From positions 1 to 34,644 of the IMG/VR virus record IMGVR_UViG_3300036770_004386: a stretch of 34,644 nucleotides of DNA; one strand, written 5' to 3'. This DNA comes from a virus. The position numbers and the translations under genes were made by a program. The notes beneath the pieces were generated by a model that saw nothing but the letters and a program-made list of their open reading frames with translations, had not been told where the DNA came from and searched no databases. Of the stretch, positions 1 through 34,644 are shown in pieces. Positions within the stretch are counted from its first letter, which is position 1; each line of letters begins with the position of its first letter.

Positions 1-159
1 GGGCAACCAAACGTCGCCCTAACCGCCCTAACCGGGCGCAAGAGATTATGGCGGTGGCGAAGACTTTAGGTCAGCCGTTGATGCCGTGGCAGCAGCAGAT
101 CGCGGAGATCGCCACCGAATACGACCCAAAAATCGGTGTGCCGTATTACCGTGAGGTGG
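1..159. repeat. Terminal direct repeat, left copy (contig circularity)
   Basis: Identical to 34486-34644 except for one base (A at 128, G at 34613). The repeat covers the end of the small terminase gene and the start of the large terminase gene. Its copies sit exactly at the two window ends, which is what an assembly overlap of a circular or circularly permuted genome gives. The unit genome would then be about 34,485 bp. A true short terminal repeat cannot be excluded from sequence alone. Confidence 0.93.
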
Positions 160-2329: not shown

Positions 2330-2682
2330 TGGCTGGTTTGGCAGGGATTTACAATATTCTCGCGGATCAAGGTGCTACTTTTGGTCGTACGATCACGTGG
2401 AAAGACGCTGATGGCGATCCGGTTAATGTTGCTGGATATACGGCACGTATGCAGGTCCGATCTACTGCGGCTGATGCTACGGTTGTTTTAGAACTGTCTA
2501 CTACTGATGGTAGGATCACTTTGGGTGGTGTGTTGGGGACGATCACTTTAACTGTTCCTGCTACTGCGATGGCGGCAGTTGAGGCTGGTGCATATGCTTA
2601 CGATTTGGAGATGGTCAACGGGTCAGATGTGACTCGTCTGTTGATGGGTTCGTTCACTGTTCGTGCTGAGGTGACCAGGTGA
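2329..2682 (+). CDS. Tail/fibre-associated Ig-like protein
   Basis: 117 residues, mostly alternating beta strands: [19 protein letters not shown], then [10 protein letters not shown], then RITLGG...[10 protein letters not shown], then YAYDLEMV...[11 protein letters not shown]. This resembles the small BppU-like or Ig-like proteins that precede fibre genes in many environmental phages and probably help build or anchor the fibre. Its stop overlaps the GTG start of the collagen-like fibre gene, so the two are coupled. The family resemblance is from memory. Confidence 0.7.
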
Positions 2683-5072
2683 GTTTCCAGGTGAACGATC
2701 AGCCACCGAAGGTTACGGTAACTGAACAGAACGTATCTGCTGAGATTTCGTTGTCTGGTCAGGGTCCGCAGGGTCCGCAGGGTCCGCAAGGTGTGCAGGG
2801 TCCAGTTGGTCCGCAGGGCGCGACAGGTCCGCAAGGTGCTACTGGTACGCAAGGTTCGCAGGGTCCGCAAGGTGCTACTGGTGCGCAAGGTGTGCAAGGA
2901 CCGGAAGGTATTCAAGGTGCTACTGGTCCGCAAGGTGCGCAAGGTGCGCAAGGTGCGACTGGTGCGCAAGGTGCGACTGGTCCTCAAGGGTCAACTGGTG
3001 CGCAAGGTCCGCAGGGTCCGCAAGGTGTTACTGGTGCGCAAGGTCCGCAAGGTGCTGAAGGTCCTACCGGTCCGCAGGGTTCGACAGGGCCACAAGGTGC
3101 ACAGGGCGATATTGGTGCACAGGGTCCGCAGGGTCCGCAAGGTGCTACAGGTCCGCAAGGTCCACAGGGCGATGTAGGTCCGCAGGGCGATACTGGTCCA
3201 CAAGGGCCACAGGGCGATACTGGTCCGCAAGGTCCGCAAGGTCCGCAGGGCGATACTGGTCCGCAGGGTGATACCGGTCCGCAAGGTCCGCAAGGTGCGC
3301 AAGGTGCGCAAGGTGCACAGGGTCCGCAAGGTCCGCAGGGCGGTATAGGTCCGCAAGGTGATACTGGTCCGCAAGGCGATATCGGTCCGCAAGGTCCGCA
3401 AGGCGATATCGGTCCGCAAGGTCCGCAAGGCGACACTGGTCCGCAGGGCGACACTGGTCCGCAGGGTCCGCAAGGTGCACAAGGTGCTACTGGTGCGCAA
3501 GGACCACAAGGTGCACAAGGTGCTGAAGGTCAATCAACATCATTTTACGATTATAAGGTCAAAACCAGTATCACATCTGGCGACCCTGGTTCTGGCTATC
3601 TCATCTACAATAACGCCAGTCAGACATCAGCCACGCAAATCAATGTCTCACACATAACGTTTGATAATTTCGATGTTGACATTTTCTTAACGTTGCTTGG
3701 TGTTGGCGATGTGATCGTCATCCAAGATTCCACTGATTCCAATGATTTCCAGAAGTGGGAGATCAGTTCCGCACCTACAAGCCAAACTGGATATGTCGAG
3801 TATCCGGTGACGTTGTTGGACAGCGGCGGCGATGGCACTACCGGTTTCGCCAATGATCTTGAAGTTTTGTTTGCGATCTCAACACAGGGTCCGCAGGGTC
3901 CGCAGGGCGCGCAAGGTGCGACAGGTCCGCAAGGTGATCAAGGTCCACAAGGTCCGCAAGGTCCGCAGGGCGATACCGGTCCGCAGGGTGCGCAGGGCGC
4001 GACTGGTGCGCAAGGTCCGCAAGGTGATATCGGTCCGCAGGGTCCGCAAGGTGACACTGGTCCGCAGGGCGCACAGGGCGCGACTGGTGCGCAAGGTCCG
4101 CAAGGTGATATCGGTCCGCAGGGTCCGCAAGGTGATACCGGTCCGCAAGGTGCGACAGGTCCGCAAGGCGCGACAGGTCCGCAAGGTCCGCAAGGCGATA
4201 CCGGTCCGCAAGGTCCGCAAGGCGATATTGGTCCGCAAGGTCCACAAGGTGATACAGGTCCGCAAGGTCCGCAAGGCGATACTGGTGCGCAAGGTCCGCA
4301 AGGTGCAACTGGTCCGCAAGGTGCTACTGGTCCTACCGGTCCGCAAGGTGACACCGGTCCGCAAGGTGCTGAAGGACCACAAGGTCCGCAAGGTGCTACT
4401 GGTGCGCAAGGTGCTACTGGTCCGCAGGGCGCGACAGGTCCACAGGGTCCGCAAGGTCCGCAAGGTGCAATTGGCCCGCAAGGTGCGGAAGGTCCGCAAG
4501 GTGCGACTGGCGCGCAAGGCGCACAAGGTCCGCAAGGTGCTACAGGTGCGCAAGGTGCACAAGGCCCGCAGGGATCTGCTGATTCTGGCACGCTAACCAC
4601 TAAGGGCGATTTGTTGACTCGCACTTCTAGCGCGTTAACTCGTCTTGCTGTTGGTGGCACGAACAACCACGTGCTTGTGGTTGATTCTGGTGCATCAGAA
4701 GGCATCAAATGGCAAGGCGAACAAGAAACGATCATTGTCGCTATCTCAGATGAAAGCACAACTATCACGACAGGCAACGCTAAGGTGACGTTCCGTATGC
4801 CGTTCGCTATGACGTTGACAGCGGTTCGAGCCTCGCTCACTACAGCATCAACGTCTGGTACACCAACATTTGACATCAACGAATCCGGTTCAACGATCTT
4901 GTCAACCAAGATCACAATCGATGCCAATGAATTGACTTCAACTACCGCTGCCACACCGCCCGTGATTTCGGATTCAGCGTTGGCCGATGATGCTGAGATC
5001 ACGATTGATGTTGATACTGCTGGTACTGGTGCGAAAGGTGCGAAAATCTATTTGATCGGGCGGCGTGCCTGA
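2679..5072 (+). CDS. Collagen-like tail fibre protein
   Basis: 797 residues beginning at GTG 2679. An N-terminal beta-rich anchor (residues 1-28, [14 protein letters not shown]) is followed by two Gly-X-Y blocks at about 29-284 and 403-633, dominated by [12 protein letters not shown] and GAT triplets. A globular insert lies at about 285-402 and a C-terminal domain at about 634-797. The C-terminal domain starts with a KGDLL...GGTNNHVL motif that recurs in the protein at 18295. Collagen-like repeats in phage fibres trimerise into rods, so this is probably the long receptor-binding fibre. The underlying DNA is a highly repetitive tract, prone to recombination length changes and assembly error. 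Long reading frames on the opposite strand here are shadows of the repeats. Confidence 0.9.
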
Positions 5073-22397: not shown

Positions 22398-24281
22398 CTA
22401 GAGCAGATAGTCGTCTAGTGCGGATTCATCTGCGGCGAACCCTGCGTGGCGCGCCCTGATCTTTACAGCCGCTCGCAGCGCAGCGTTACTGGCCTGGACA
22501 CCCATTTCCGTGAGGATCGCTCTAACCTTCCGGCTGGACAGTAGCGGATCGACCTGCAACTCATCCAACTGCGCTACCAGGGCTAGTGCGCCATCGGGGA
22601 GTGGTGCGGCATGGGCGATCTCAAACCGTAGCGGATCTTCACTCATCCGTAATTCCACCTTCTCTGGTACCCAACCCATACGGGCTTTCCTGGTTTTCAA
22701 ACTGTATAGATCGCTACCTGATCGGGTCATCTGCCAAACCACGTCTACATCGTCGTTCTTAGCGGAACTTCCACGCTGTCCACGTTCTAGATCTTTACCG
22801 GCATGGTCTATACGTAGGAACGCGCGACCAGCACGCTTAAGATAGATACCGGTGTTCCTGTAGAACGCACGTACGGTATCGGCCTCGTTTTCTTCACCTT
22901 GCACCGCACGACCGAAAGTGTCGAATACCACCAGTTCCGCATCACACAACTCTGCCAATCTCGCGACCTGCGCGCCGCCAGTTTCACTGTCCAAACTGTC
23001 AATATCCGGTAGCAGTGCATAACGTAGATTGGAAAGGTTGTGTTCTGGCGTATATCCCATCGATTCCAGTCGTTCTGCGAGGTCGTCGGGTGTCATCTCG
23101 TAGTCTAGGTAGAGGACACGTCGCGGTTTCTGCGGATGACCGAAAATTGGTGTGCCGGTGGCGATCGCCGCACACAGCCACAACGCAAGTAGGCTTTTAC
23201 CAGTGCCACCTGGTGCGAAAATCGCATGGGCGCGAGCCTCAGCGATCAACGGTTCCGCCAACCATTCCGCTACCGTATGGTCCTGCTCCCAAAACGTAGG
23301 CCAGTCGATCAACATCCCCAACAGACGTTGGTCGCGATCGTCGCTCGTCGGTTGACCCAACAAGTCATCTAAATCTGGTTGTTCAGTGACGTGTTCTTCA
23401 CGTAGCAGTGATTTGGCTGCGGCACTGCGATCTCCGTTGAAATCGCGACACGCCATATAACCAAACCGGCTGTACGCACCAGCCGGTAGCCATAAGATCG
23501 ACGAGGTGAACACCACCAGCACATCTTGGCCTTTATAACCGACAGTGGCGGATGTGCCTTCACGTGTGGTTTTACCAGGACGTGTCCAATATTGCTCACC
23601 ATCACGATCTGAATGGCTGTAGATCCAACCATCGCGCGACAGCAGATCTTCCCACGTCGTACGAGCGTTATATCTCGCTGCCGGTCCATCACCATCGTTA
23701 GATATTGGTGTAGTAGGTGGTTCAGCCTGCGGATTAGTGATCAAATTGACCAACCATTTGGGCATCGGCGCAGGTTGGATATCTGCCGGTGATCTACCTT
23801 CCACCCAACGGTATGGTGTCCCATTAGGGTGGACCGTTGGCGGTGCGAGAACTTGCCCACCATCACCACGTATATCGATCCCTACACCTAACCGTTTACC
23901 TGCGTCGTTGCGGATCTCCACGGCTGGTGGCGCGAGTAGGTAGAGGTGGCGACCACCGGAGCCGGTAGCCACCTCAACAGTTTCTGGTAGCGCACCGTAA
24001 CGCGATTCCAGTTTGGCGAAACTATCTGATCCTGACTGTTCCAGGTCGTGTTCGTCAATGTCAATGACGATCAGGTTCTGACCGGATGGTTGGGGACCGG
24101 TGGCGACACCAACACCATGGTTGGCGTACATACCGCGATACCAGTTGGAGATCGTCTGCTTATCAACCGTGGCTGCGTGTTGCCAAGCGGTCATGGCAGG
24201 TCGTTTCATCCCTGGTTTGATCGGGAGCACTCGCCAACCTAGATCAGCAAGTTGTAGGGCGGTTTGGAAACTGTCCATCAC
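22398..24281 (-). CDS. Bifunctional primase-polymerase / RepA-like helicase
   Basis: 627 residues. The N-terminal ~190 residues form an archaeo-eukaryotic primase-polymerase (PrimPol) domain: the metal-binding pair in IVIDIDEHD (D74, D76), TGSGGRHLYL with H112, and GVGIDIRGDGGQVLAPPTVH. The C-terminal half is a RecA-fold helicase of the RepA/AAA_25 type: Walker A in IFAPGGTGKSLLA (about 352-364), then RVLYLDYEMTPDDLAERL, the Walker-B-like VVFDTFGRAVQGEEN, and LRIDHAGKDLERGQRGSSAK. It would prime, extend and unwind viral DNA. No other DNA polymerase gene is visible, so this or a host enzyme copies the genome. Cyanophage S-2L, a known Z-genome phage, also uses a PrimPol. The start overlaps the nuclease gene upstream by four bases. 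Confidence 0.92.
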   Translation of the reverse strand: MMDSFQTALQLADLGWRVLPIKPGMKRPAMTAWQHAATVDKQTISNWYRGMYANHGVGVATGPQPSGQNLIVIDIDEHDLEQSGSDSFAKLESRYGALPETVEVATGSGGRHLYLLAPPAVEIRNDAGKRLGVGIDIRGDGGQVLAPPTVHPNGTPYRWVEGRSPADIQPAPMPKWLVNLITNPQAEPPTTPISNDGDGPAARYNARTTWEDLLSRDGWIYSHSDRDGEQYWTRPGKTTREGTSATVGYKGQDVLVVFTSSILWLPAGAYSRFGYMACRDFNGDRSAAAKSLLREEHVTEQPDLDDLLGQPTSDDRDQRLLGMLIDWPTFWEQDHTVAEWLAEPLIAEARAHAIFAPGGTGKSLLALWLCAAIATGTPIFGHPQKPRRVLYLDYEMTPDDLAERLESMGYTPEHNLSNLRYALLPDIDSLDSETGGAQVARLAELCDAELVVFDTFGRAVQGEENEADTVRAFYRNTGIYLKRAGRAFLRIDHAGKDLERGQRGSSAKNDDVDVVWQMTRSGSDLYSLKTRKARMGWVPEKVELRMSEDPLRFEIAHAAPLPDGALALVAQLDELQVDPLLSSRKVRAILTEMGVQASNAALRAAVKIRARHAGFAADESALDDYLL

Positions 24282-24639: not shown

Positions 24640-24726
24640 TTATTTCAGGTAGTGGTTGTCGGTCGCGAGAACGCCCAAGGTGAAACCCAGGACCACGCCG
24701 AGAACAACGCCGATCAAAATCGCCAT
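24640..24726 (-). CDS. Tiny single-pass membrane protein (28 aa)
   Basis: Begins with an ATG that overlaps the stop of the WhiB-like gene (TAATG). It encodes MAILIGVVLGVVLGFTLGVL followed by a short polar end ATDNHYLK. It is one transmembrane helix with regularly spaced glycines, a typical oligomerisation face. Too short for usual gene callers, but coupling and composition support it. Confidence 0.65.
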   Translation of the reverse strand: MAILIGVVLGVVLGFTLGVLATDNHYLK

Positions 24727-25082
24727 TATCGTTCACCTTTGTTCCGTTTCCTACGAAAATATTGACACCTACGGCAGGTGCAGATCATTGGATCAGCGAT
24801 CAGATCATGTCGATGTTTCTGCCGCTGTCGGCTCGTCATCCCTGCAGCGAAAGCATACGGTAGCGGATCAGGGATACTTTCTAAACACCAACGGTAACAA
24901 CGATCGAACACAGGACAGTTATCACAGTACTGTTTGGCGCGTTTCTGTTCTACCACTGACATTTCGCGGTGCAGCGGCTCAAACATATCTGAATTGAGCC
25001 GCTGCCCCGCGATTTTACAGTTGGCGTATTGCTGCCAATCAAACACCTGTAACGCGAGATCGACGTTCGATTTCTGATTCAT
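24726..25082 (-). CDS. WhiB-like protein (early leftward arm)
   Basis: 118 residues. Four cysteines with WhiB-like spacing: YANCKIAG, then YCDNCPVFDRCYRWC, followed by a turn AAGMTSRQRQ in place of the canonical GxWGG. The C-terminus adds a second pair (CTCRRC) and a basic tail. WhiB proteins bind an iron-sulphur cluster and sigma factor and occur only in actinobacteria and their phages. The weakened turn makes this a divergent member. Confidence 0.75.
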   Translation of the reverse strand: MNQKSNVDLALQVFDWQQYANCKIAGQRLNSDMFEPLHREMSVVEQKRAKQYCDNCPVFDRCYRWCLESIPDPLPYAFAAGMTSRQRQKHRHDLIADPMICTCRRCQYFRRKRNKGER

Positions 25083-26985: not shown

Positions 26986-27525
26986 TTAGATTTTCCACTG
27001 CCACCAACGGTACTCGTAACCGTGGCGATCGATCGAATAGAGATATAGAGCCTTCGCCGCTCGTGCGTTGGTCAACCAGTCGCATAGGTCAGCCACATCA
27101 TCGACGATACCGAGGTTCCCTAGGTATCCTGCTGGGTGTGGGTTCCATCGGTTTGATTTGGCCCACGATGCGTTGATCTGCCATGCACCGAACGAACCGC
27201 CAGACGGATCATCCGCATTGTGTGAACAGCGAGGTGCGCCGGTGGCGGTGACATCGCAGCGCGATTCACGCCAGGCGAGATAGTCAAGATGTTGAAGTTC
27301 GTTTTCGGGAAATCCGGCTGCACGTGCCACCGGGATCAAGTTGGGACAGCGAGGTGCGAAAGATAGCGGCGGCACAGTGGTGGTTGTTGTCGGTGGCACT
27401 GTCGTAGTGGTGGTGGTGGGCATCGTGGTGGTGGTGGTGGTTGTTGTTGTCGGAACCGTCGTAACCGCGGTTTCGACGGTGGTACTACAAGCCGATAACA
27501 GGACTATAGCAAATAGGTGTTTCAT
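26986..27525 (-). CDS. Early lipoprotein with lysozyme/transglycosylase-like domain
   Basis: 179 residues. A short signal peptide ends in a lipobox (LLSAC, Cys13), then a Thr/Pro-rich spacer reaches about residue 53. Next comes a lysozyme-like domain: LDYLAWRESRCDVTATGAPR supplies the catalytic-type Glu, and GGSFGAWQINASWAKSN gives the GxxQI motif. It would be anchored outside the membrane, facing the wall. It is encoded in the early nucleotide/replication operon rather than the lysis cassette. Superinfection exclusion or cell-wall remodelling is more likely than terminal lysis. Confidence 0.82.
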   Translation of the reverse strand: MKHLFAIVLLSACSTTVETAVTTVPTTTTTTTTTMPTTTTTTVPPTTTTTVPPLSFAPRCPNLIPVARAAGFPENELQHLDYLAWRESRCDVTATGAPRCSHNADDPSGGSFGAWQINASWAKSNRWNPHPAGYLGNLGIVDDVADLCDWLTNARAAKALYLYSIDRHGYEYRWWQWKI

Positions 27526-28355
27526 CGTCCTGTGCTCCCAAAACCAGTCGCGCCACGCTCACTGTCGTCCAACGGCAGGTTGGCCCACCGTAGGCCAGCG
27601 GCGGTCAACGGCAACGGGACGATCTGCGCCACGCGATCTCCTGGTTCAATCACCTGTGGCTCTGAACCGATATTCCAACAGCAGGCGTACAATTCACCAC
27701 GATATCCCTGGTCGATCACCGATGGTGCGACGAACAACTTCCGGGAGAAAGTACTGCTACGACCTACGATCAAACCCCAAATATCATCAGGGAATTGCAC
27801 CGCGATCTTAGACCGTACGTTCTGGAACTCTCCCGGCTGGATGGTCAGCGGTTGGTCGTCACAGTAGTAGAGGTCAAATCCGGCATCGCCGGTTTTGCCG
27901 GTTTTCGGCTGTTGACCCTCGCCAAACCAACGCATCACCTGTCGCCGGTCCTGCAAAACCACCTGGTGGCGGAAGTTCCGCAACTGTCGCATCAACAACG
28001 GCAGGTTGTCACCAACGATCACCATCGGTTGCGTACGCAACCACGAGACGATCGCACTTTGATAGCCCTGCGTATCGGTGTAGAACACCACCGGCTTACG
28101 GTTGTTGATCGCAAACTGGATCTCCATCGGGACACCCAACGACTTCTGATCATGCGGCAACGACGCAAACAACAAATCCGACTGTAGCAACGCATACTGG
28201 TTGATCTGCTGAATGTACGGACCATCAATGATCTTAGTTCCGAATGCACGGTACGGTGCATAGACAGTATGTCCATCCTCGATCAACAGCGTGCGCACGG
28301 CATCTGATTCTGATGAGCGACCAAAATCAACGCTGGTCGCGAGATAGATATTCAC
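27522..28355 (-). CDS. Fused nucleoside deoxyribosyltransferase-like / dUTPase protein
   Basis: 277 residues. Residues 1-125 resemble nucleoside 2-deoxyribosyltransferases or deoxynucleotide N-hydrolases: NIYLATSVDFG start, LLQSDLLFASL with D60, and SLGVPMEIQFAINNRKPVVF with E78. Residues 155-277 are a dUTPase with its five motifs: DAGFDLY (157-163), GRSS (198-201), VIDQGYRGE (213-221), GDRVAQIVP (239-247) and RGATGFGSTG (267-276). The dUTPase should keep uracil out of DNA. The first domain could break or remodel deoxynucleotides, perhaps removing dAMP in a Z-genome phage, but substrate is unknown. It is coupled to both neighbours. Confidence 0.88.
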   Translation of the reverse strand: MNIYLATSVDFGRSSESDAVRTLLIEDGHTVYAPYRAFGTKIIDGPYIQQINQYALLQSDLLFASLPHDQKSLGVPMEIQFAINNRKPVVFYTDTQGYQSAIVSWLRTQPMVIVGDNLPLLMRQLRNFRHQVVLQDRRQVMRWFGEGQQPKTGKTGDAGFDLYYCDDQPLTIQPGEFQNVRSKIAVQFPDDIWGLIVGRSSTFSRKLFVAPSVIDQGYRGELYACCWNIGSEPQVIEPGDRVAQIVPLPLTAAGLRWANLPLDDSERGATGFGSTGR

Positions 28356-28546
28356 TGTGTCTCCCCTCTGTACAACTTGAATGCGGATGGGTGTGGATGG
28401 ATCTCGATCACACCATCATCCGTACGGATGTATTCGATCTGACCGGTGGTGTTCGCACGCAACTGTGCGTAGACGCGCAGAGCCTCCAACGGGACGTTAC
28501 GTCGCCCTTCAGTCACCGGTCGCAGGTCATCAATGTTGTCATCCAT
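28352..28546 (-). CDS. Hypothetical small protein (64 aa)
   Basis: Starts at an ATG overlapping the stop of the MazG-like gene (ATGGATGA) and ends overlapping the dUTPase fusion. The sequence DNIDDLRPVTEGRRNVPLEA, LRVYAQLRANTTGQIEYIRT and a C-terminal IEIHPHPSAFKLYRGE suggests a small beta-rich domain. No family recognised. Position inside the nucleotide cluster hints at an accessory role. Confidence 0.65.
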   Translation of the reverse strand: MDDNIDDLRPVTEGRRNVPLEALRVYAQLRANTTGQIEYIRTDDGVIEIHPHPSAFKLYRGETQ

Positions 28547-28868
28547 CCCAACAGCCGCTCCTTTTCGCTTGTACCATCTTCGCGTAGACTGCGATATCAA
28601 ACCACGTGTCATCGCTGGCAGTGTCGCCACGTTGGATGGCGGACACTGCACGTTCCATCTTCCCGATCAGGTAGAACAGACAGCCGATCTCAAACGCCGC
28701 CACCTCGCTGAGCGGCGGACGGTTAGCCAACGCCGCCACCTGCTGACCAACAGCGATCAGATCCTTACTGCCATACTCCTGCATCTTGGCCACGGTCTGT
28801 TCAGACTCGAACATCGCGTGGTCCATCCACCAGTCCTGCAACGGCGATACCGGTTCCGTGTATTTCAT
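28539..28868 (-). CDS. MazG-like nucleotide pyrophosphohydrolase (MazZ candidate)
   Basis: 109 residues, all helical. Acidic residues with MazG-like spacing are E55 and E60 (EVAAFEIGCLFYLIGKMERA), E72, and D86/D87/D91 (SDDTWFDIAVYAKMV), which could bind magnesium. The gene overlaps the PurZ-like gene by four bases (ATGA), so the two are made together. In known Z-genome phages, a MazG-type enzyme (MazZ) makes dGMP from dGTP to feed PurZ. The same pairing here makes that the leading function. Family identification is good; dGTP specificity is inferred. Confidence 0.78.
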   Translation of the reverse strand: MKYTEPVSPLQDWWMDHAMFESEQTVAKMQEYGSKDLIAVGQQVAALANRPPLSEVAAFEIGCLFYLIGKMERAVSAIQRGDTASDDTWFDIAVYAKMVQAKRSGCWDG

Positions 28869-29920
28869 CGCGGCCTCCAGATAATCGTGCTGTTCGATGT
28901 GGTGAACGCTGCGAACTGGACACCCATCGCACGCTCATACCCTTGGATATCAGACCAAGCGACCGAATCGCGCAAACGATCCAGATCAGTTGCACCAGCC
29001 AAAGCAGGGTCAAGATAATCAACAAATGTCAACACCGGGTGGAGACGTGGGTAGTTCCGTCCACCGTTGGCGATGATCGCTTCATCAGCGAGCATATCGT
29101 CCCACTGTGCAACACGACGGATCTTCTTCGTGACTGTCGTCCGCTCCGGCTGGATATAACCGCCAGTTTGCGCCGCCAACGTTTCCCAATCCGTCTCCCC
29201 AAACATCGGACCAGAGTTCCCTGCCACGCGGATGGGGAAGGTGCGGAACACAACCCAATTGTGCGTCAAGTTGTGCGGCTGGATACCGGTCTGCGCCAAG
29301 AAATGGACAGCAGCGCAATCGTTGGACGTACAGTAAGGGTAACGTCCTGCGTGTAGACCAAGCGCATAACCCTGTGTACCTTCGATCAGGATATTGGACC
29401 CATCCTCGTGTTCGGCCTGCAACATGGCGGTGGTGTTCGGGTGGATCAGATCATCCCCAACCACCTGATCCGCCAGCAGTGCCTTACGCATCAAACGGTC
29501 TGCACGTGCCGCACCAATACCCTTAGCGGTGGAGCCGAACTTCTCTTGCAGGCTGGCGGTGGCCTCACCATCAATATGGTCTTGAGTCAACATCGTCGCT
29601 TGACCATCAACATGGAGACGTTTCCGCACTTCAAACCCTGCGTCTTCCAACATGGTGATCTCATGTTCCAACACCGACAGGTCGATCTCGCTACCTGCAG
29701 CGATCACCAATTGACATTCAGGATCGACCACTGCTGCGACGGGGATCGTACGCAACGCCCAAACACGACCTTGGTCGTCCACCGCTGAGTGGCCAGCGTT
29801 CGGACCACCGACCCGTACTGCGTAGCGGATGTCGTGCAAGGTGTGGATCTGTGCGGCGACGTGACCTTTAGCCTCGCTACCGTACTGTCCACCAACAACA
29901 ATGTGAATGTTACCTGCCAT
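28865..29920 (-). CDS. purZ: PurZ-type adenylosuccinate synthetase homologue (2-aminoadenine pathway)
   Basis: 351 residues from ATG 29920, with GGGAA upstream; the longer frame is unlikely. The fold markers of adenylosuccinate synthetases are present: QYGSEAKG (residues 12-19), GGPNAGHS (38-45, H44), GSTAKGIG (129-136) and EGTQGYALGL (180-189). The usual GDEGKG has become GSEAKG: the catalytic Asp (Asp13 of E. coli PurA) is Ser15. That Asp-to-Ser/Gly change marks PurZ, which joins dGMP and aspartate to make the precursor of 2-aminoadenine (Z) nucleotides. The enzyme sits beside a MazG-like gene and a PrimPol, as in Z-genome phages. A plain host-like PurA is unlikely given the lost Asp. Confidence 0.88.
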   Translation of the reverse strand: MAGNIHIVVGGQYGSEAKGHVAAQIHTLHDIRYAVRVGGPNAGHSAVDDQGRVWALRTIPVAAVVDPECQLVIAAGSEIDLSVLEHEITMLEDAGFEVRKRLHVDGQATMLTQDHIDGEATASLQEKFGSTAKGIGAARADRLMRKALLADQVVGDDLIHPNTTAMLQAEHEDGSNILIEGTQGYALGLHAGRYPYCTSNDCAAVHFLAQTGIQPHNLTHNWVVFRTFPIRVAGNSGPMFGETDWETLAAQTGGYIQPERTTVTKKIRRVAQWDDMLADEAIIANGGRNYPRLHPVLTFVDYLDPALAGATDLDRLRDSVAWSDIQGYERAMGVQFAAFTTSNSTIIWRPR

Positions 29921-31185: not shown

Positions 31186-31368
31186 ATGACCACTTACACC
31201 ATCACCTACACCACTGATCAAAACTGGACCGGTACGATCACCAAATACGACGAACTGGAAGCAGAACTCACCGCCAACGGATTGCTAGGAGTTCTGATCG
31301 CAAAAGGCACGATCGCCAACGTTCGACTCACCGTTGACAACACACTGATCAACGAATGGGAATACTGA
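31186..31368 (+). CDS. Hypothetical small protein (60 aa)
   Basis: Two bases after the previous stop. Beta-strand pattern TTYTITYTTDQNWTGTITKY, then a helix (DELEAELTANGLLG) and strand IANVRLTVDNTLINEW. Compact alpha/beta domain with no recognised family. Sits directly upstream of the methyltransferase. Confidence 0.65.
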   Translation: MTTYTITYTTDQNWTGTITKYDELEAELTANGLLGVLIAKGTIANVRLTVDNTLINEWEY

Positions 31369-31370
31369 CC

Positions 31371-32519
31371 ATGGCAACTTACGGATCACTCTTCAGTGGC
31401 GTAGGCGGATTTGACATGGGCTTTGACCAACAAGGCTACCAATGTGAATGGCAAGTTGAATGGGACCAACACTGCCAACAAGTGCTGCAACACCACTGGC
31501 CAGAAACACCCAAATACCTAGACGTACGAGACGTACGTGGTGACCAAATCACACCAGTAGACGTGATCATCTACGGATCGCCCTGCCAAGACCTGTCCGT
31601 AGCAGGTAGACAACGAGGCTTAGAAGGCGAAAAATCATCGATGTTTTTTGAATCAGTACGTATCTTCAAGGAGATGAGAGATGCAACCAACGGAACCTAC
31701 CCAAGAATCGTTGTTTGGGAAAACGTGCCTGGAGCACTCACCAGCAACAAAGGACGAGATTTCTACACCGTCCTCACACAACTGGAAAACATTGGGTCAC
31801 TATCACAATGGTGGAGTGTGCTGGATGCGCAACACTTTGGAATCCCCCAACGACGTAGACGAGTATTCCTCATCTCTGTCTTTGATCCTGCAATCGTTGA
31901 ACGAACAGGACATGGCGACCTTCTCCCTGTCACCACGGGCCGCACAGGGAGTGCTTCGACGAGCGCAAAAACGCAACAGACCACTACCACCACGACTGCA
32001 GACAGCACTGGAACAACTAGCCCAATCGGATTTTCCCACAACGCAGGACTGAACCACCAAGCATCAGACGAAGTGTTCCCCACACTGCGAGTCAGCCAAG
32101 GTGGACGACTGTCAGTTCTCACAGATCAAGAACCGCTGTTCTTCCACCCACATTTCCACGACGGTGCACGAGTTCAACACGGTACGTTGAACACCATCAC
32201 CGCACGATGGGGAACAGGTGGCAACAACACAGATATGGTGGTACTGCCAGTATCCACCCTAACCGCACACCTGAAACACGGTGTTGACGCGGAATCCGCT
32301 GCAGGTGGCCACCTCATCCCAACTGGCCAAACCACGATCAGACGGTTGACACCAACTGAATGTGAACGGTTGATGGGATGGCCAGATGACCACACCCTAT
32401 TTCGAGCAGATGGTAAAACCAACAGCAACAGCCAACGGTACAAAATGTGCGGAAACGGAGTGGCAACACCAGTCGCCGCATGGATCGCCAAACACCTGAA
32501 ACCACTATTGGAGAACTGA
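31371..32519 (+). CDS. DNA (cytosine-5) methyltransferase
   Basis: 382 residues from ATG 31371. All key C5-methyltransferase motifs are present: I (YGSLFSGVGGFDMGF), IV (IYGSPCQDLSVAGRQRG with the catalytic PC), VI (VVWENVPGAL), VIII (PQRRRRVFLIS) and X (KMCGNGVATPVAAWIAKHL). A Thr-rich low-complexity insert lies before the target-recognition region. No restriction partner is adjacent, so it probably protects phage DNA from host enzymes. Target sequence unknown. Confidence 0.92.
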   Translation: MATYGSLFSGVGGFDMGFDQQGYQCEWQVEWDQHCQQVLQHHWPETPKYLDVRDVRGDQITPVDVIIYGSPCQDLSVAGRQRGLEGEKSSMFFESVRIFKEMRDATNGTYPRIVVWENVPGALTSNKGRDFYTVLTQLENIGSLSQWWSVLDAQHFGIPQRRRRVFLISVFDPAIVERTGHGDLLPVTTGRTGSASTSAKTQQTTTTTTADSTGTTSPIGFSHNAGLNHQASDEVFPTLRVSQGGRLSVLTDQEPLFFHPHFHDGARVQHGTLNTITARWGTGGNNTDMVVLPVSTLTAHLKHGVDAESAAGGHLIPTGQTTIRRLTPTECERLMGWPDDHTLFRADGKTNSNSQRYKMCGNGVATPVAAWIAKHLKPLLEN

Positions 32520-32797: not shown

Positions 32798-33202
32798 GTG
32801 ACACCGACGTTCTACCAACACGCACTCTGTCGTAACACAGACTCGAACTTGTTCGTCCCACCATACCGCGCCAGCCAGATCACAGCCGCACGTAAAATCT
32901 GCAACCAATGTCCAGTACAAACCGAATGTTTGAACTACGCACTAGAAACACAAAAAACCGAACAACTGTTAGGTATCTACGGTGGACTTACCGAAACCCA
33001 ACGCGAGAAAATACTCCATCAACAGACTGACAGACCACGACCACGACGCACGACACGCAAACCAACCCACGGCACGCTGTACTCCTACCGGGTCGCAAAA
33101 TGTCGCTGTGATATGTGCAGAGCCGCACACGCACGTACCGTCTCACGCCAACGGAAAACGCGCCGGAACAGTTCCGGCACATATCAGGCGGAGAACACCT
33201 GA
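32798..33202 (+). CDS. WhiB-family regulator with extra C-terminal zinc motif
   Basis: 134 residues from GTG 32798. WhiB features: C11 (ALCRNTDSNLFVPPY), ICNQCPVQTECLNYAL giving C-x2-C-x5-C, and the GIYGGLTETQR turn. After a basic linker, HGTLYSYRVAKCRCDMCRAA is a second metal-binding motif shared with the protein at 29910. WhiB phage proteins can reprogram host sigma-factor-dependent promoters. Likely an early regulator of host or viral genes. Confidence 0.88.
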   Translation: MTPTFYQHALCRNTDSNLFVPPYRASQITAARKICNQCPVQTECLNYALETQKTEQLLGIYGGLTETQREKILHQQTDRPRPRRTTRKPTHGTLYSYRVAKCRCDMCRAAHARTVSRQRKTRRNSSGTYQAENT

Positions 33203-34210: not shown

Positions 34211-34507
34211 GTGGCCACAAAAAAGAAAATCGAACAGCCGGTTTACGGCAGGAACCGCACCGCTATCGAGCAGACCATCAACGCACTAGATGTCGCCGGT
34301 AGGTTAGAATTGGTGGATAACGCCCAACTTGCTATCTGCCGTTCGCTCGCTGATGCGGTGGATAGCGACCCGACCAACGCCAGTTTGTGGCGCGAATATC
34401 GCGCCGCAGAGTTGGCTTTGAGAACCGCCAATGCCCAAGACACAGACGAGTTCACGACGCTCCTCGCCAGTTTGTCAGCCGAGGTGGGCAACCAAACGTC
34501 GCCCTAA
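34211..34507 (+). CDS. terS: Terminase small subunit
   Basis: 98 residues from GTG 34211 with AAAGG seven bases upstream. Short, helical and charged: NRTAIEQTINALDVAGRLEL, NAQLAICRSLADAVDSDPTN, LWREYRAAELALRTANAQDT. Size, helical content and position directly before the large terminase match small actinophage terminase subunits that recognise packaging DNA. Its end overlaps the extended start of the large subunit across the circular join. Confidence 0.85.
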   Translation: MATKKKIEQPVYGRNRTAIEQTINALDVAGRLELVDNAQLAICRSLADAVDSDPTNASLWREYRAAELALRTANAQDTDEFTTLLASLSAEVGNQTSP

Positions 34508-34644
34508 CCGCCCTAACCGGGCGCAAGAGATTATGGCGGTGGCGAAGACTTTAGGTCAGCCGTTGATGCCGTGGCAGCAGCAGATCGCGGAGATCGCCAC
34601 CGAATACGACCCGAAAATCGGTGTGCCGTATTACCGTGAGGTGG
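34431..34644 (+). CDS. terL: Terminase large subunit, 5' part (continues at position 160)
   Basis: The frame of the large terminase runs from ATG 34431 through the window end, then continues at position 160 of the left end after the shared 159-bp overlap. It supplies about 34 residues missing from the left-end copy, beginning MPKTQTSSRRS. It overlaps the small subunit gene by 77 bases. A later start at 34533 (equal to 48) is the alternative. Confidence 0.75.
   Translation, partial: MPKTQTSSRRSSPVCQPRWATKRRPNRPNRAQEIMAVAKTLGQPLMPWQQQIAEIATEYDPKIGVPYYREV
34486..34644. repeat. Terminal direct repeat, right copy
   Basis: Duplicate of positions 1-159 with one mismatch (G at 34613 versus A at 128). 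The change is silent in the terminase frame (CCA to CCG, both Pro), consistent with a population variant. Confidence 0.93.

Follow-up and report, generated by a model that had tools for sequence, protein, structure and literature searches.

The window analysed here is the whole 34,644-nucleotide stretch of the IMG/VR record IMGVR_UViG_3300036770_004386, and at 27522-28355 on its minus strand it carries an open reading frame of 277 residues with a GTG start in which two domains are fused. The C-terminal half matches PF00692 (dUTPase) in Pfam over residues 149-276 at E=2.1e-20, and the N-terminal half matches PF05014 (Nuc_deoxyrib_tr) over residues 3-97 at E=6e-5 and 23.6 bits, a score which does not reach the curated cut-off of 28.8. 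Before the fusion on the same strand lie purZ0 (28865..29920; 351 residues from the ATG at 29920, with the frame open to 30100; phrog_1211 at E=3.2e-76), a 109-residue gene which we call G51 after gp51 of Gordonia phage Ghobes (28539..28868) and a small ORF (28352..28546; 64 residues from the ATG at 28546, the listed frame starting at 28651) for which neither Pfam nor PHROGs gave a family match. Overlaps of 4 bp join purZ with G51, the small ORF with the fusion, and the fusion with the lysozyme-like gene downstream of it, therefore the purZ cluster reads as one operon. An earlier sequence-only reading of this DNA had placed a fusion of a deoxyribosyltransferase-like domain and a dUTPase inside the purZ cluster, and both the make-up and the position are confirmed.

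Among solved structures the window PurZ fits best to the PurA-like synthetase 7vf6 (E=1.5e-76), a PurZ0 structure, followed by phiVC8 PurZ (4.1e-31) and S-2L PurZ (3.5e-27). Its GSEAKG motif has Ser where PurA has Asp13, and in a tree of 47 PurZ proteins, from which the Hiyaa protein and loci on short contigs were omitted, it sits on the PurZ0 side, apart from the S-2L and phiVC8 proteins, with an SH-aLRT of 100 for the split, obtained in a quick search with long outgroup branches. The step after PurZ belongs to PurB (adenylosuccinate lyase), which profile and sequence searches did not find in the window, and a host lyase is therefore assumed; Ghobes (L005, 413-1546, minus strand) and Galactica (L006, 20874-22259, plus strand) have PurB of their own.

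The N-terminal domain (residues 1-135; 27951..28355, minus strand) is predicted to be a DmtZ-like dAMP N-hydrolase or deoxyribose-5-phosphate transferase. Taken in isolation it matches PF05014 at E=1.1e-5, as do 26 of the 34 homologues, the best of them at 7.2e-10, and a PDB search with its sequence alone gave a chance match only. An AlphaFold2 model of this domain (pLDDT 89.4, pTM 0.85), built from the window sequence with 33 representatives of the 71 domain-bearing environmental PurZ0 loci, was matched by Foldseek to 2-deoxyribosyltransferases, human DNPH1/Rcl and MilB (E from 6.5e-6, probability 1.00). In VIA-align the model superposes on 6evs with Z 16.2 and rmsd 2.4 and on DNPH1 8rpt with Z 15.4 and rmsd 2.5, over 126 aligned residues each time, so that the structure-based comparison with DNPH1/Rcl and NDT families that the sequence-only reading had called for came out in its favour.

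The columns Y4, D10, P34, N52, G74 and E78 are invariant in the 34-row alignment of homologues and correspond in Ghobes gp53 (DmtZ) to Y6, D12, P57, N77, G99 and E103, all of which except G99 are among the residues mutated in PMC12884076. The predicted catalytic triad is Y4, N52 and E78, by alignment with Ghobes Y6, N77 and E103. D60 and E78 had been singled out from the sequence; both exist and the choice of E78 was sound, but D60 lies eight residues past N52, which takes the catalytic place instead, and varies among the 34 homologues. D10, the Asp for dAMP recognition, and P34, the transferase-type Pro, are retained in 34/34, and the counterpart of D10 is essential in Ghobes DmtZ (PMC12884076). 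The Ghobes lid residue W124 is not cleanly conserved, with Y98 or W105 near its position and a loop of varying length. The fold and the Tyr/Asp-or-Asn/Glu site are thus common to the window domain and to DNPH1/Rcl, MilB N-hydrolases and NDT transferases, while Asn52, the DmtZ-type Asp10/Pro34 pattern and the fusion to a dUTPase set the window domain apart from them.

The C-terminal domain (residues 149-277; 27525..27911, minus strand) is predicted to be a DutZ-like diphosphohydrolase of dATP, dGTP and dUTP. A DutZ profile made from 68 domains, with the window's own clade excluded, scores it at 3.4e-45 and 140 bits, whereas phage 9NA, with an ordinary dUTPase, reaches 47.6 bits. All five dUTPase motifs are legible by eye in the fusion. 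The EL-type pair of motif 3 is followed by an aromatic residue (F in 65, Y in 5) in all 70 domains in which the pattern could be parsed, out of 80 with ten left unparsed, and by G, M or K in the five solved dUTPases shown; that this aromatic residue might determine dATP hydrolysis is our guess. To describe this half as a full dUTPase, as was done at first, is correct with respect to its motifs and too narrow with respect to its likely function, as the same half in characterised relatives converts dATP to dAMP.

The architecture itself was characterised in February 2026 in the DmtZ-DutZ of Arthrobacter phage Wayne (PMC12884076), with DutZ converting dATP, dGTP and dUTP to the monophosphates and DmtZ either splitting dAMP to adenine or transferring its deoxyribose-5-phosphate to Z; of the PurZ0 genomes in that study dutZ is found in 98/98 and dmtZ in 85, fused in 77. 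The dAMP hydrolysis or base exchange suggested from the window sequence is therefore an in vitro activity of the homologous domain, and for the same reason biasing of the dATP pool is no longer novel for the PurZ0 family, so that its description as a previously undescribed route is outdated. The window shares with Wayne (and with Ghobes, where DmtZ and DutZ are separate) the domain order, catalytic residues, operon neighbours and PurZ0 partner, and it differs from Wayne in having G51 in the DUF5664 slot, in the lack of DpoZ and in that its activity is a predicted one. The order purZ - pool gene - small ORF - fusion is common to the window, Wayne and Preamble, a member of the same Arthrobacter PurZ0 phage group. 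Identity to this characterised group is only about a third (33% to the Preamble fusion over residues 2-277, E 3e-31), which counts against the best explanation. A pattern scan of IMG/VR revealed no close relatives of the fusion, and relatives were gathered there via PurZ in its place; most of these loci have DmtZ and DutZ in the purZ0 operon (24 fused and 43 separate, of 80). Taking these comparisons together, we are quite confident that the gene is a DmtZ-DutZ fusion, a distant new member of its family with predicted dATP and dAMP activities. It probably destroys dATP, allowing Z to be built into the phage DNA in place of A.

A different role would be thymidylate and uracil housekeeping, with an ordinary dUTPase joined to a DNPH1-like domain which clears damaged dNMPs (for example hmdUMP), all unrelated to Z. 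The canonical dUTPase motifs are all intact, DNPH1 ranks high among the structural matches of the N-terminal domain and, judged by kcat, the Wayne enzyme still prefers dUTP (PMC12884076, Table 1), as such a role would have it. However, the recurrent location of both domains in the purZ0 operon, the invariance of Asp10 with its essential counterpart in Ghobes and the far better fit of the DutZ profile to the window domain than to an ordinary dUTPase all speak against housekeeping, and we consider it improbable.

The two ends of the window (1..159 and 34486..34644) are copies of each other, identical at 158/159 positions, an imperfection that could explain why the record is listed as linear. When the ends are joined, the genes for the small and large terminase subunits come to lie 25 bp apart, and the gene set includes terminase, portal, protease and capsid. 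Since the window closes on itself, genes missing from it, DatZ and Pol A in particular, are absent from an essentially complete genome. The DatZ family PF12917 has no match in the window, while the same model finds S-2L and phiVC8; a local DatZ profile gives a best E of 0.54, and no HD family appears in a Pfam scan that covered 30 of the window's ORFs, all but some small ones. Local profiles likewise gave no sign of a concealed DatZ or MazZ. Across the 40 environmental PurZ0 records that reach 15 kb, the window among them (41 loci on shorter contigs were excluded), DatZ was found in none, and among seven isolates used as controls it was found in S-2L and phiVC8 only. The remark in the sequence-only reading that no DatZ or HD-domain gene can be seen is borne out within these searches, and its judgement that the fusion occupies the place where a dATP-removing enzyme is needed appears to be right.

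The only DNA polymerase found is a PrimPol with a helicase-type ATPase (22398..24281, minus strand; PF09250 at E=2.7e-46, PF13481 at E=3.8e-28). It has the motifs DID, SGGRH and GIDIRG. In an alignment with ten relatives, the window sequence and all of them retain the acidic pair, the histidine and the aspartate of the third motif, with ExE for DxD in the second of the clades described below. Neither Pfam nor a PurZ0-type Pol A profile, with which the controls score 590-815 bits, found Pol A (DpoZ) in the window. In the same 40 records Pol A is present in 16 and PrimPol in 32, including 18 of the 24 records that lack Pol A; the six with neither may be fragments. Six of the seven isolates have Pol A, the exception being S-2L, as published. 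One environmental Pol A match (G017, locus L043, 6355-7320, minus strand) contains one in-frame TAG.

In the PurZ tree the window falls into a PolA-free clade of six rows (the window and five records, SH-aLRT 99), and a second PolA-free clade of 11 rows (SH-aLRT 100) is nested beside PolA-bearing records (98). PrimPol, DmtZ and DutZ are present in 17/17 records of the two clades, of which only four are closed genomes; many of the environmental records are fragments. Over the whole tree the Pol A label changes at least eight times, part of which possibly comes from fragmentary records. DmtZ was detected in 22/23 PolA-free and 12/16 PolA-bearing records, a tie to Pol A loss which is in the expected direction and not significant (Fisher p=0.14, with rows that are not independent). 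PurZ0 loci with DutZ in which DmtZ was undetected are L017, L066, L084, L086 and L091, four of the five with Pol A. As the sequence is a metagenome contig, a Pol A gene might have been lost in assembly or be located elsewhere, but the end overlap closes the map with the terminase genes adjoining across it, and three further relatives of ten examined (G001, G011 and G019) also close on themselves without Pol A. This reading is mostly refuted and we give it hardly any credence.

According to PMC8342488, every Z-phage except S-2L carries a Z-selective Pol A, and PMC12884076 links PurZ0 to DpoZ-1; the word PrimPol is absent from the main text of the latter. A search of one open-access library returned PurZ together with PrimPol in three papers, which concern S-2L and phiVC8. 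PurZ0 genomes without Pol A/DpoZ and with PrimPol only thus look new, not being in print within that library. The nearest functional parallel is S-2L, whose PrimPol is non-selective (PMC8342488; assays in PMC8065100) and which reaches full replacement with PrimPol as the sole possible polymerase combined with dATP removal (PMC8065100, PMC8342488). The S-2L set of DatZ, MazZ, PurZ and PrimPol is like that of the window in having a PrimPol without Pol A and, as predicted for the window, in dATP removal and dGMP supply. It differs in using an HD phosphohydrolase on dATP, in having PurZ and not PurZ0 and in having MazZ, of which the window contains no homologue. The two PrimPols have no similarity detectable by phmmer and PF09250 does not match that of S-2L, hence they are not close kin.

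G51 is recognised by its own-family profile at E=4.1e-29 and is located directly behind purZ at 79 of the 80 environmental loci of PurZ0 type, the lone miss (L042) being a sequence which stops 52 bases beyond purZ. It is also found in 31 isolate records (18 Microbacterium, 6 Gordonia, 5 Streptomyces, 1 Curtobacterium and 1 Micrococcus), annotated in 31/31 as a hypothetical protein, and for the first three genera the PurZ counts equal the G51 counts. In Arthrobacter phages the slot is filled by DUF5664, an enzyme that hydrolyses dATP, dGTP and dUTP (PMC12884076); the available parts of that paper do not name the G51 family, and this small gene after purZ looks new.

The AlphaFold2 model of G51 has four helices (pLDDT 93.3), and for it Foldseek returns its own family and then viral structures labelled DUF6378 or nucleotide-modification domain, with probability up to 0.92 (up to 0.87 for models with the latter name). 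In hhalign it matches a profile of 12 DUF6378 sequences with a probability of 41.5% (P 2.7e-4), compared to at most 0.3% for seven controls, and its K70-x-x-R73 and D87-x3-D91-x3-Y95 align with invariant DUF6378 columns. G51 resembles the DUF6378 (PF19905) phage proteins in these columns and in a helical fold, at a level below the Pfam threshold; PF19905 itself has no match in 7/7 PurZ0 records. It is probably a distant relative of DUF6378 and a candidate dNTP hydrolase. Being more constant than dmtZ and having no known role, it suggests itself as a candidate for the dGTP to dGMP step. Three of 30 G51 members match phrog_474 and one matches phrog_1167, both of which DUF6378 proteins match strongly; given these matches, the phosphofructokinase label that PHROGs puts on both looks like an annotation error.

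Other assignments of G51 were tried and set aside. Compared with single sequences of Wayne DUF5664, S-2L MazZ and the phiVC8 gene adjoining purZ (MazZ-2), it gave no significant match, with hhalign probabilities of 0.3, 1.0 and 0.2%, respectively. For a MazG fold there was no PDB match at E<=0.001 and VIA-align rows tied with unrelated chains, DCTPP1/RS21-C6 scoring a Z of about 5, level with unrelated helical chains; the DUF6378 profile did not find a PDB chain either. DUF1599, first suggested by eye, was listed by Pfam for 0/30 members.

How would such a phage put Z into its DNA? We suggest that the DutZ half would convert dATP to dAMP, which the DmtZ half would then remove via a deoxyribosyl-5-phosphate ester on E78, released either to water (yielding adenine and deoxyribose-5-phosphate) or to free Z base (yielding dZMP). 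PurZ0 would turn dGMP into the succinyl precursor, from which the host lyase and kinases would make dZTP. The fusion, a compact enzyme of 277 residues for emptying the dATP pool, would thus drain dATP at the same time as dZTP is made by PurZ0 and enzymes of the host, and PrimPol or a host polymerase would copy the genome with the nucleotides that remain. In this scheme control of the pool by DmtZ-DutZ would replace polymerase selectivity, the part that DatZ plays in S-2L, where PrimPol is non-selective. DatZ and a Pol A-type DpoZ are both missing from this closed genome, in which the only polymerase found is a PrimPol, and so it is probably the pool that decides for Z over A.

From this we tentatively propose, as a possibility which we would not yet favour over all others combined, that PurZ0 phages have a second route to Z-DNA that dispenses with a Z-selective polymerase. 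A module of three enzymes (PurZ0, G51 as a DUF6378-like nucleotide hydrolase and DmtZ-DutZ) would lead a blind polymerase, be it PrimPol or that of the host, to use Z, convergently with S-2L, and would have arisen on two or more occasions as DpoZ was lost or replaced. An alternative, to which we give less than even odds, is that dATP removal matters but a host polymerase replicates the phage, with PrimPol a mere primase and the DNA only partly Z. Many small phages rely on host replicases, and PolA-bearing PurZ0 phages carry PrimPol as well, hence PrimPol need not be the replicase. On the other hand, S-2L achieves full replacement with PrimPol and dATP removal, and the whole pool set is kept in two PolA-free clades. 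The absence of Pol A from a closed genome and from two PurZ0 clades opens to direct test whether dATP depletion by itself is enough to swap a DNA letter.

Elsewhere in the window, two WhiB-like regulators (24726-25082, minus strand; 32798-33202, plus strand) point to an actinobacterial host, and a 797-residue protein with long collagen-like GPQ repeats (2679-5072, plus strand) is probably a tail fibre. A C5-cytosine DNA methylase (31356-32519, plus strand) may provide a second DNA modification in a Z-phage.
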